NCBI GenBank assembly: GCA_003349885.1
Contig: QFXC01000011.1
Location: 798,900 to 862,899, forward strand
Length of the DNA: 64,000 bases
Origin: an endosymbiont of Galathealinum brachiosum
GTDB taxonomy: Bacteria > Pseudomonadota > Gammaproteobacteria > SZUA-229
Direction of reading: 5' to 3'
In this document: piece after piece, positions 1,542 to 7,406 of the stretch
Numbering within the stretch: position 1 is the first letter of the stretch
Layout: the number at the start of each line of letters is the position of its first letter
Program-made: the position numbers and the translations under genes
The notes under the pieces: model-generated
What the model was told of the DNA's origin: nothing
The model's input: only the letters and a program-made list of their open reading frames with translations
Database searches by the model: none

Positions 1542-2141
1542 CTACAAAGCCTGTCTTATTAAATATTGAGATAACTCTAGAGCATTTGACTGCTCCTCGG
1601 TTAACTCGTTGTCCTTTTCAGCTTGTGCGGCATTTTCCTTGCTAAGTAATGTTTCCAGCACAGCCGATAAGGCATGAATTCTTTCCTGCGCGATAATCAT
1701 TTCTAACATACGGCAATATGGCTTTATTAAATCAATGAAGTGAACCGCATCTAAAAGTTTAAGGCAGCGCTGTTCATTGTTTTTAGATGTATAAAATAAA
1801 GCAAGACTTTGGTCGCATTGATAATCAGTCTGATCGAAGTCTGCTAATTCCTGTTTGGTCTGCTGAAGACAGCTCAGCAGGCTATTCAGGCAGGATTCAA
1901 TTTCCATTCGCTCATTATAACTGGTGCGTTGTATAAACTGGTTACGATTCGCTGTAATTGTTAAAAATTGAATTGCCAGTGTGTCAATGGCATGAACGAG
2001 TGTTTTAACTGTGTACTCCTGTTCGGAGCCCAGTGTCAGATTAGTGTTAAATCCCAGTTGTTGAAGCTTTATCAGGAGGGCGTTGTTCACAGTTTTTAAG
2101 CTGACTAACAGTGAATTAATTGAAGCGATGGACTTTGCCAT
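1542..2141 (-). CDS. unknown helical protein
   Basis: A 199-residue protein without signal peptide or membrane segment, predicted largely helical from its leucine/glutamine-rich heptad-like spacing (for example LLIKLQQLGF, LLSCLQQTKQELADF). It has cysteines but no metal-binding pattern that I can name. The gene is transcribed away from the DnaA-box cluster, its start lying 120 bases from the nearest box, so the boxes could sit in its promoter region. Convergent with the small secreted protein gene (36-base gap). No family recognised; reality as a gene is supported by length and the even codon use. Confidence 0.55.
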   Translation of the reverse strand: MAKSIASINSLLVSLKTVNNALLIKLQQLGFNTNLTLGSEQEYTVKTLVHAIDTLAIQFLTITANRNQFIQRTSYNERMEIESCLNSLLSCLQQTKQELADFDQTDYQCDQSLALFYTSKNNEQRCLKLLDAVHFIDLIKPYCRMLEMIIAQERIHALSAVLETLLSKENAAQAEKDNELTEEQSNALELSQYLIRQAL

Positions 2142-2261: not shown

Positions 2262-2398
2262 TGTGGATAACTTAACTTAATTAGACTTCCATGTGATGCT
2301 TAAATCAATTGACCTACTATATATTGTGGAAATTTTGGGGTCAATAACTATCTACTGTGGATAAGGTTGTTTAAAAAAATAGTATAAGCTGTGGATAA
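2262..2398 (-). promoter_or_regulatory. cluster of three perfect DnaA boxes
   Basis: TGTGGATAA, the complement of the DnaA consensus TTATCCACA, occurs three times in the same orientation at 2262-2270, 2356-2364 and 2390-2398. About 0.5 copies of an exact 9-mer (both strands) would be expected in 64 kb at equal base frequencies, so three in 137 bases is not chance. An AT-rich run (TTTAAAAAAATAGTATAAG) lies between boxes two and three, and GATC occurs at 2151 and 2227. The intergenic region (2142-2529) holds no gene. None of the usual oriC neighbours (dnaA, dnaN, mnmG, parAB, atp) is in the window, so it may be an origin, a DnaA-titrating or reactivating locus, or a DnaA-controlled promoter. 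Confidence 0.7.
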
Positions 2399-2529
2399 GT
2401 CTGTGAATTGCCCGCTGATAAAGGGCTGGAGTGCTGCTCAAAAAACAACCTGAAAATGAAGCTGATTAAATTTCTGACCAGCGGTAGGGGGTAAATTGTT
2501 TAATATATTTGAAGAAATTGAGTCTGGTT

Positions 2530-4627: not shown

Positions 4628-5206
4628 TTAACTTGAACTTGCTCTGGCCGAAACGATATAACGTTGTGAGCCACCAGGTACGATAGAATCAAACGGATAG
4701 CAGGTAACTAGATGTATATATTCACCTGACTGGTCATTTAAAAAACGTGCATTATCCATTTCTACAATTTTTGTAGAAATAACTTTAAAAATTATATTGT
4801 CAGATTGAGCTGTATCTATGACGATATTGTCATCAGGTTTTAGATATTTTAAAAAATTAAAATGAGTATCACGATGAGCACTGATCAAACTGTTACCTTT
4901 GACACCGGGCATTACAGAAGCAAAATTATGGCCTGGACCGAAAGCAAGTGTTCGACCGCTATCTCCGGCTAGTACGATTAAATCAATATCTAATCGGGGC
5001 ACCTTAAGGCGGGCAATTGGCCAGGTGTCAGCCCATGGCCATGGTTTGCTTTTTGTTTTTCCTGATTTTACATTACTCCACGCCTGTTCAAGTAATTGCT
5101 GAGCAACAAATGCTTTTACATGAACATAGGTTCCCTGAGCAATGAACCAGCATCCGGGTATAAATAAAAATATAATTATATATGGTTTTCCGGGTATGTT
5201 TTTCAT
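4628..5206 (-). CDS. class GN sortase (proteobacterial dedicated sortase)
   Basis: A 192-residue membrane-anchored transpeptidase: N-terminal hydrophobic anchor (residues 9-27), then the sortase fold with catalytic His111 (SAHRDTHF), Cys169 (LVTCYPF) and Arg182 (GGSQRYIV), all present. The family cleaves a C-terminal sorting signal and transfers the substrate; in Gram-negatives the acceptor is not well defined. The frame is open 26 codons further upstream, but ATG 5206 has AAGGTGG six bases before it and begins one base after the stop of the substrate gene, so it is translationally coupled to it. The sortase and substrate genes form a two-gene operon, the usual arrangement of this system. Confidence 0.93.
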   Translation of the reverse strand: MKNIPGKPYIIIFLFIPGCWFIAQGTYVHVKAFVAQQLLEQAWSNVKSGKTKSKPWPWADTWPIARLKVPRLDIDLIVLAGDSGRTLAFGPGHNFASVMPGVKGNSLISAHRDTHFNFLKYLKPDDNIVIDTAQSDNIIFKVISTKIVEMDNARFLNDQSGEYIHLVTCYPFDSIVPGGSQRYIVSARASSS

Positions 5207-5207
5207 T

Positions 5208-7406
5208 TTACACCACCTTTTTTTCTGACGAGCCTGAAAGGGTGTTTTCAGTGCTGCGTAATAAAATAGTGAGTGCCAATGCAAGCATTAATAAAGTTAT
5301 TCCGAATAGTAAATTTAATTCGGCTGATGTTGCCGTTTGCGCTAAACGACCGAAACTCTGTTTAGTGCTTTGACCGTGTGGGAGATTAACTGGAATTTGA
5401 TGTGTATTGAATTTTGAATGATTCGGTCGTGCGGGTGTTTTATCAACAGCAATAAGACTGGTGTGTTTACTAACTAAATGGTGTGTGAGTGCAATATTGA
5501 TAATTTCAGAACGCACCCGTTCTTTGTCAGCACCTTCGTGAAGGCTGTCAGATAAAGCACTAATTTTATTGCGTGCCCAGAAAGCGCCTATCCCATTGCT
5601 CGGTTTGCTGTTGTTCAACTGTAATTTTGCAGACCAGGGTGAAAGTGCGCGTGTACCACTAACTATTATTTCATTTAATGGTTTGTCTGATCTTATCGCG
5701 AGGACAACAGGTTCACCATGGTATAAGTCTGGTATACGATTTGGCCATACTTCAGTTGTTATATTGTCTTCGGTATGTATTTGAATATCTGTCATAACCG
5801 GACTTTCAAGTTTAGCGAATAAGGATGACATTTTTTCATGCACCTCATTTACATTGCTTATGTAAGTGAAACTACCACGACCAAACTTTGCTGCTTTACG
5901 CATGAAATAGCTGTTGGGCGCAGAGCCGATACCAATTGTAAATAAACGACTATTTCCGAGGCTTTTGTGGATGATGTCGAATAGTGCTGTCTCATTTTCA
6001 ACACTACCATCGGTAAGGAAAATAACCTGATGAACATAATTTTTTTCATGATTGTTTTTTAAGGCCAGTTTTAATGCTGGAGCCATTTCAGTGCCACCAT
6101 CTGCATGAAGGTTATTTACATAATTTTTGGCTGATAAAATATTCTGGAAGCTGGCCATCTTCGAATTAGAGAAAAGCTGATCAGTTACTGAGTTGAACTG
6201 GATAATGTTGAATTTGTCATGTAAACGTAATCTGTCTAAAGCTATCAGGAGTGATTGTTTAGCCTGGTCCATAGAAACACCATACATGGAACCTGAAGTG
6301 TCAATAATATAAGTAACATCTCTCGCTAGTGGTTGTCCGCTAAACTTATCTCCCCCTGGTGGTACTAGCATTACCATTTGAAAATTATTGTTTTTTATCT
6401 TTTCATTAAATACAGCCGCTTTTGGGGTATGGTTAGATTCTGGTGTCCATACCAGTTCAAAGTCTCGATCCGAATATGTGTCTCCCTCTGTAAGTGAGAT
6501 ATGAATTATGTCGTTTGTCTGATGTTTGTTGATAGTGTGATAACGGCTAAATAAATTTTCTAAAGGAAATCCAGGCTTTAAATCAATTTTAATAGAAACA
6601 GGGTTTATTTTTTGTTTATTGTTATTGATGAAAGGAGTAATGCTCGAAGCATCCGGCACTTGTAGTGTATTGTGTGCCCAGCCAGATTCGGCGAGAGGTA
6701 TTGTTTCATTGATCGCTTTACCGGGAATATATCGAGGTGTAATTGCCATCGGGAAGCGCAGGCTGAAATTTCCCTGATCATAATGAAGTGTTTGCTGGTA
6801 TTCAATTTCAATAACAATGGTTTCACCAGGGCCAATATTGGCAACTTGATTAGTGAATAAATTTGGACGCTGTTGTTCAATTAGAGCTGTTTTTTTGCCT
6901 TCTTTTTGTGCCTTTTTATACAGGCGTTTTGCCTCCTGCTTTTCTTTGATCTCTCCCTCAATTATGCGATTACCAATACGCATTCTCATATGATCAACAG
7001 CAGAATTTTCAGGCAAAGGGAAAACATAAATAGCTTCAATCCAGCTATCATTCGGGTTTTTGAAATATTGCTTTACATGGTTGCGAGATATCATTCCGGA
7101 TACGTGCATATCAACAACCGTACGTAATAAAGGCATTTGGTGATAAAGGTTTCCATTAGCTGATTTCACTACAAGACTGCCTTCACTTATTTTGTCGAGA
7201 GTGATTTGAGGTAGTTCGGAGGTTGCGTTATTTGCGTAAACCTGATTAGTCAGTAACAATAGAAAAAGAGCTAAAGCCAGCAAAAGCACAGTCATGATTA
7301 AACGTTGGAACCATATCGCTAACCCTGATTTTTTAGGCTTGTATTTATCATCCAGATACTCGCGACGGGGACGACGTTTAAAAAAATGTTTATTAATTGT
7401 TAACAT
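5208..7406 (-). CDS. marine proteobacterial sortase target protein (VIT and vWA domains)
   Basis: A 732-residue surface or periplasmic protein. Basic N-terminus and signal/anchor helix at about 30-55; VIT domain at about 80-215; von Willebrand A domain from about 360 with a complete MIDAS pattern (IDTSGSM, DGGTEMAPAL, FLTDGS); C-terminal sorting region of RLAQTATSAE (about 687-696), a hydrophobic helix, and a tail ending in EKK. The expected sorting motif in this family is LPxT-like; here the proline is replaced, giving LAQTA. It is encoded directly before the sortase and is presumably its only substrate in this locus. The vWA/VIT pair suggests metal-dependent protein binding, but the ligand is unknown. 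Confidence 0.93.
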   Translation of the reverse strand: MLTINKHFFKRRPRREYLDDKYKPKKSGLAIWFQRLIMTVLLLALALFLLLLTNQVYANNATSELPQITLDKISEGSLVVKSANGNLYHQMPLLRTVVDMHVSGMISRNHVKQYFKNPNDSWIEAIYVFPLPENSAVDHMRMRIGNRIIEGEIKEKQEAKRLYKKAQKEGKKTALIEQQRPNLFTNQVANIGPGETIVIEIEYQQTLHYDQGNFSLRFPMAITPRYIPGKAINETIPLAESGWAHNTLQVPDASSITPFINNNKQKINPVSIKIDLKPGFPLENLFSRYHTINKHQTNDIIHISLTEGDTYSDRDFELVWTPESNHTPKAAVFNEKIKNNNFQMVMLVPPGGDKFSGQPLARDVTYIIDTSGSMYGVSMDQAKQSLLIALDRLRLHDKFNIIQFNSVTDQLFSNSKMASFQNILSAKNYVNNLHADGGTEMAPALKLALKNNHEKNYVHQVIFLTDGSVENETALFDIIHKSLGNSRLFTIGIGSAPNSYFMRKAAKFGRGSFTYISNVNEVHEKMSSLFAKLESPVMTDIQIHTEDNITTEVWPNRIPDLYHGEPVVLAIRSDKPLNEIIVSGTRALSPWSAKLQLNNSKPSNGIGAFWARNKISALSDSLHEGADKERVRSEIINIALTHHLVSKHTSLIAVDKTPARPNHSKFNTHQIPVNLPHGQSTKQSFGRLAQTATSAELNLLFGITLLMLALALTILLRSTENTLSGSSEKKVV

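Follow-up and report, generated by a model that had tools for sequence, protein, structure and literature searches.

To our knowledge, promoters under DnaA control have been described for a small number of genes, chiefly from Escherichia coli and Bacillus subtilis. In B. subtilis, Sda is a DnaA-dependent small regulator. Its promoter is named in the available part of PMC13220808, which also states for nrdAB that DnaA-ADP or low levels of DnaA-ATP can activate transcription and that high levels of DnaA-ATP repress it. In E. coli, the regulation of nrdA by DnaA has been reported, and ChIP-seq data suggest that nrdD and nrdG are controlled as well; according to the accessible text of the same study, DnaA favours boxes 2-3 bp apart, and reductase operons are among its targets (PMC11317965). 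Both DnaA and NrdR bind the E. coli nrdAB promoter (excerpts of PMC12176259 and PMC11317965). NrdR, under which E. coli nrdAB stands, acts through paired 16-bp boxes that overlap promoters (PMC12176259, as far as the available passages go), and a search for papers with both an NrdR box and a DnaA box listed a single one, a Lactobacillus pan-genome study.

Here, we analysed three DnaA boxes in a 64-kb stretch of DNA (the window, G000:C11:798900-862899) from a 3.77-Mb genome that is assembled in 14 contigs and is 99.5% complete. The boxes occupy the intergenic gap at 2142-2529, between the end of a gene for a 139-aa protein and the start of a gene for a 199-residue protein, both of which are on the minus strand. 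We compared this locus with the described DnaA-controlled promoters and with the known classes of chromosomal DnaA-binding sites.

Conserved DnaA boxes around a predicted promoter

The preliminary description of this DNA had noted three exact boxes in the same orientation, and this was confirmed: all three are on the minus strand, with start-to-start distances of 94 and 34 bp (Table 1). The number of exact boxes in the 64-kb window is ordinary, as the mean in shuffled sequence was 0.86 and at least three were found in 10 of 100 shuffles; genome-wide there are 49. Their clustering is unusual, because a triple within 137 bp arose in only 2 of 20,000 random placements of 46 boxes (the 49 minus the three at oriC). 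The AT-rich run described between the last two boxes is also present, with a G+C content of 24% at 2365-2389 versus 36% for the whole gap. GATC sites do occur nearby, as had been stated, but their number is ordinary (2 found, 1.06 expected).

Table 1. Features of the 199-residue gene and its upstream region (window coordinates)
Feature	Position	Strand	Remarks
Gene of the 199-residue helical protein	1542..2141	-	presumed target of the promoter
DnaA box III, TTATCCACA	2262..2270	-	exact; past the promoter, within the presumed leader; 9/9 columns invariant (5 genus genomes)
Candidate NrdR box 2	2314..2329	-	13/16 to a loose consensus; passes published single-box pattern; covers the -10; 31 bp from box 1
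-10 hexamer, TATAGT	2316..2321	-	17-bp spacer; 6/6 columns invariant in genus
-35 hexamer, TTGACC	2339..2344	-	6/6 columns invariant in genus; TTGAC in 12/12 genomes
Candidate NrdR box 1 (weak)	2345..2360	-	11/16 to a loose consensus; fails published pattern; overlaps DnaA box II
DnaA box II, TTATCCACA	2356..2364	-	exact; 11 bp upstream of the -35; 9/9 columns invariant (5 genus genomes)
Weak partner box, TTTTAAACA	2368..2376	-	register gap 23; 3 mismatches; gap 23 boxed in other genera
DnaA box I, TTATCCACA	2390..2398	-	exact; 45 bp upstream of the -35; 9/9 columns invariant (5 genus genomes)
Weak partner box, CAATTCACA	2402..2410	-	register gap 57; 3 mismatches
Conserved block, CTACCGCTGGTCAGA	2473..2487	-	15/15 columns invariant (5 genus genomes); ends some 75 bp 5' of box I

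The boxes flank what appears to be a sigma70-type promoter, TTGACC-N17-TATAGT, that would read into the 199-residue gene, with a transcription start presumed near 2309. Orthologues of the 199-residue protein were found in 12 of 54 genomes of the family; in a sample of the class they were present in 3 of 369 genomes, all within the family, and none was seen outside it. Across the 12 orthologue loci, the -10 element is TATATAGT in 11 genomes and TATAAAGT in G007.

The boxes are kept in the four other genomes of the genus, which answers the question of conservation raised in the preliminary description. In an alignment of the intergenic region from these genomes and the window genome (61-73% identity), boxes I-III and both promoter hexamers are invariant, compared with 89 of 313 other intergenic columns. 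When sets of three 9-mers were drawn at random 200,000 times, every column of all three was invariant in 61 cases. At a place similar to that of box III, ATATCCACA is found in G008 and G009. With regard to the conserved block further upstream, CCGCTGGTCAG was not found before the 199-residue gene in the other genera. A possible fourth DnaA box, ATTTCCACA at 2325, was also considered and dropped: other genera have CCCCC or CACAC before TATATAGT at this place, which is more in keeping with an NrdR box or with plain spacer.

A box register shared across genera and with a reductase gene

The placement of the boxes relative to the promoter extends well beyond one genus. Across six genera, box-like 9-mers occur at gaps of 11, 23, 34 and 45 bp upstream of the -35, and within 75 bp before the -35, exact boxes are found only at these gaps (11 of 12 genomes). 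When one genome per genus was compared for the six genera (G013 among them), gaps 11, 45, 23 and 34 ranked highest out of 90. The best single-gap mean, 7.0 of 9, was reached by none of 5,000 shuffles and none of 5,000 rotations, and the opposite strand gave no signal. High-affinity boxes are thus consistently placed, as expected of a DnaA-regulated promoter. The strongest such lattice in the window lies exactly at the -35 of the 199-residue gene, scoring 29 of 36, with 21 at the next non-overlapping place; the best scores in controls were 22 in three shuffled windows and 24 in 290,905 other bases of the genome, some of which were counted twice.

In the genus of the window, boxes II and I stand at gaps 11 and 45 of this register, respectively. 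Weak partners, with two to three mismatches or worse, occupy gaps 23, 34 and 57, and tight double boxes are therefore less clear here than in other genera; double boxes at a pitch of 11-12 bp are clear in G006, G007, G008, G018 and G061. A counterpoint is provided by G013, which keeps the gene and the promoter without any recognisable DnaA box. Taken together, conservation, register and placement at the promoter lend good support to the earlier suggestion of a DnaA-regulated promoter for the 199-residue protein. On sequence grounds, we put at roughly three in four the probability that the boxes form a DnaA operator of a sigma70-type, nrdA-type promoter that drives this gene.

The same register is found at a ribonucleotide reductase gene of another family. 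A scan of 369 genomes of the class with the pattern CCACA-N8-38-TTGAC-N15-17-TATATAGT returned matches in six genomes, and the reversed pattern, used as a control, returned one match. Three of the six are at the 199-residue gene (G000, G001 and G006), and those in G102 and G298 fall inside open reading frames or at their edge. The only intergenic match outside the family, in G206, is upstream of a reductase gene: its -35 lies 319 bp before a gene whose product carries an ATP-cone domain and a reductase all-alpha domain. Like the promoter of the 199-residue gene, this promoter combines TTGACC and a TATATAGT -10 with boxes at gaps 11, 23, 34 and 45 (CAATACACA, TTAGCCACA, TTATGCAGT and TTATCCACA, respectively). 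In contrast to the promoter of the 199-residue gene, it drives an ATP-cone reductase, and both of its NrdR boxes pass the published pattern. The reductase parallel draws on this one genome outside the family.

Similarities are also apparent with E. coli nrdAB, where TTATCCACA and TTATGCACT form a box pair at a pitch of 12 bp, reading with the gene near the promoter, and where an NrdR-like box, CCCCTATATATAGTGT, lies downstream, comparable to the candidate NrdR box of the promoter studied here. Nevertheless, the target here is an orphan protein rather than a reductase, there is an additional box III in the leader, and the distance between the boxes and the -35 differs from that in E. coli nrdAB, whose hexamers were picked by eye. 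In the present genome, the only match to a reductase large subunit is a class II NrdJ (C14:20202-21848, with a separate downstream piece); upstream of it are TTACCCACA and TTATCCCCA at 11 bp and also an NrdR-like box. The B. subtilis sda promoter may be comparable, as the gene of a small regulator there likewise has DnaA boxes at its promoter, but the protein is unrelated and the phylum is different.

Alternative readings of the boxes

The preliminary description had also considered a datA-like site, which would titrate DnaA or stimulate ATP hydrolysis, the promoter being incidental. The boxes of the window are same-facing, as are the essential datA boxes (PMC5742627, in the part available), and one pair is similarly spaced in the two loci, with 63 bp from ATTTCCACA to box III and 67 bp from ATATCCACA to TTATCCACA in E. 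coli datA; in addition, a location 350 kb from oriC would suit early doubling. However, in none of the five genus genomes did a consensus scan find an IHF-like site (0-1 mismatch) between the promoter-flanking boxes, whereas the same scan finds an exact site in E. coli datA; a very weak site may have escaped it. Box number and spacing differ from genus to genus, but the promoter and the position of the register relative to the -35 stay constant, and in G007, where the 139-aa gene is on a different contig, the boxes and promoter remain with the 199-residue gene. A datA-like function of the locus is therefore unlikely, and the evidence fits a promoter operator better.

The candidate NrdR boxes were scored against ACACWATATATWGTGT, a loose NrdR consensus. 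By this measure, a pair of boxes 31-32 bp apart, scoring 22-25 of 32, lies over the -35 to -10 region in 11 of the 12 loci, and boxes 1 and 2 are the top-scoring pair in the 64-kb window (24, with 21 at the next non-overlapping place). The left arm of box 1 doubles as a DnaA box. A promoter of the NrdR regulon would carry two boxes 14-17 bp apart that overlap it. Under the published pattern (PMC12051234, section 4.6), a pair was found at none of the 12 loci and box 2 alone at 8 of them; a pair is present in G206, and E. coli nrdA fails the pair pattern in the same way as the 12 loci. The genome does encode nrdR (TIGR00244 over the cut-off at C8:319137-319577). Because the left arm of box 1 is a DnaA box and the published pair pattern is matched at 0 of 12 loci, NrdR is a candidate regulator of this promoter, and judging from these motifs, the odds that it takes part are about even.

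A stronger version of this idea would make NrdR the main regulator of the same architecture, with the DnaA-like boxes used weakly by DnaA or by another factor. This would agree with the recurrence of the candidate pair in 11 of 12 genomes that carry the gene, with the presence of nrdR and with the usual distance of 15-16 bp between NrdR boxes given in the accessible parts of PMC12051234 and PMC12176259. Moreover, the right arm, TTGTGC before the -35, is kept in G013, the genome lacking a DnaA box. In contrast, none of the 12 loci has a box 1 that passes the published pattern, the left arm of box 1 is shared with a DnaA box, and the register runs four box positions upstream, past what NrdR would need. 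We consider it quite improbable that NrdR is the main regulator.

A relocated or second chromosomal origin, another suggestion of the preliminary description, would accord with three perfect boxes and an AT-rich stretch, but it is contradicted by a standard origin region elsewhere on the contig. The one strong full-length DnaA gene is located at C11:451 kb, about 350 kb from the window boxes, and is followed by dnaN, recF and gyrB, with rnpA, yidC and mnmE on the other side (open reading frames named by eye). The 243-bp gap between dnaA and dnaN holds three exact boxes and one TTATTCACA. GC skew was sampled in the dnaA region, in the window and in 20 stretches along contig C11. Every stretch to the left of dnaA has a negative skew and every stretch to the right a positive one, and the sign changes near 450-451 kb within the dnaA piece; at the window, the skew is steadily positive on both sides, with no switch. 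None of the three DnaA-family matches in the genome falls within the window, in line with the earlier remark that no typical oriC gene is present there. Of the two observations that had been named as speaking against the boxes, the first was thus made, as a skew switch and a box cluster exist at dnaA, but the second was not, as the boxes are conserved in close relatives. That the locus itself serves as an origin is very improbable.

A DARS reactivating ADP-DnaA is likewise contradicted, and we give it next to no weight: three intergenic DnaA boxes conserved in relatives are found here and three boxes make up the E. coli cores, but in MG1655 DARS1 and DARS2, we measured one box facing two opposed boxes at 14 and 12 bp, whereas the window boxes all face one direction at 34 and 94 bp, and true DARS geometry is present at three other places in this genome.

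These DARS-like cores are at C11:305815-305849, C11:306160-306194 and C13:587826-587860. The two on C11 are 345 bp apart, beside priA, and the tandem spacing recurs in G001 (346 bp) and in G050, a member of another genus (345 bp). At least one DARS-like core is present in 18 of the 54 family genomes.

Proposed control and possible role of the 199-residue family

The 199-residue protein has no Pfam family over the cut-off and no convincing match in Pfam, NCBIfam, PHROGs or PADLOC; the best weak matches of the family were TIMELESS_C (E 0.00091, for one of 11 members) and JetB (E 0.0055). There was no sequence match in the PDB, and the protein was absent from the phage and plasmid collections searched. 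It is predicted with modest confidence to be all-helical (pLDDT 66), and a Foldseek search with this model gave no match at E 0.001 or better. As the predicted fold is both of modest confidence and unmatched, the protein offers no independent functional hint.

With regard to the gene neighbourhood, a gene for a hydrophobic protein of 125-127 aa (MPWWA... or MPMPWWA...) lies 3' of the 199-residue gene and in the same orientation in three genomes from other genera, and the window genome is without it at this place. Elsewhere in the window, at 4628-7406, adjoining open reading frames resemble, by eye, a sortase and its large vWA-type target. Rfam and tRNA scans of the window gave no hits.

We infer from the register that DnaA molecules would line up head to tail along a helical lattice with a pitch of 11-12 bp, its phase fixed to the -35, and that in this genus it would also occupy box III, 74 bp past the start of the -35 in the presumed leader. 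If control resembles that of E. coli nrdAB, transcription would be aided by DnaA-ADP or by low levels of DnaA-ATP and shut off when DnaA-ATP is high. Such control by the nucleotide state of DnaA would, we propose, make expression of the 199-residue protein follow replication initiation. A further brake may come from dATP-loaded NrdR, which would cover the -35 to -10 region, and box III could serve as a roadblock, an action of DnaA that is described in the accessible text of PMC11317965. On the other hand, a promoter so close to consensus might not need an activator.

Judging from the promoter alone, the function of the protein is probably tied to DNA-precursor supply or to initiation. A more specific proposal, which we put forward tentatively and regard as possible but doubtful, is that the members of the family are new factors that regulate or assist the synthesis of DNA precursors or the initiation of replication, under an nrdA-type promoter controlled by DnaA and NrdR. 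If so, the family might, for instance, target NrdJ, the class II reductase, or DnaA and be made in step with initiation.

In summary, the box register shared across genera links an orphan protein to the regulatory logic of ribonucleotide reductase and gives a concrete, testable function for a protein with no recognisable domain. According to the available part of PMC11317965, the action of DnaA on RNA polymerase is poorly understood, and this holds for activation in particular. The fixed phase between the boxes and the -35 in this family provides a natural comparative data set for that action.
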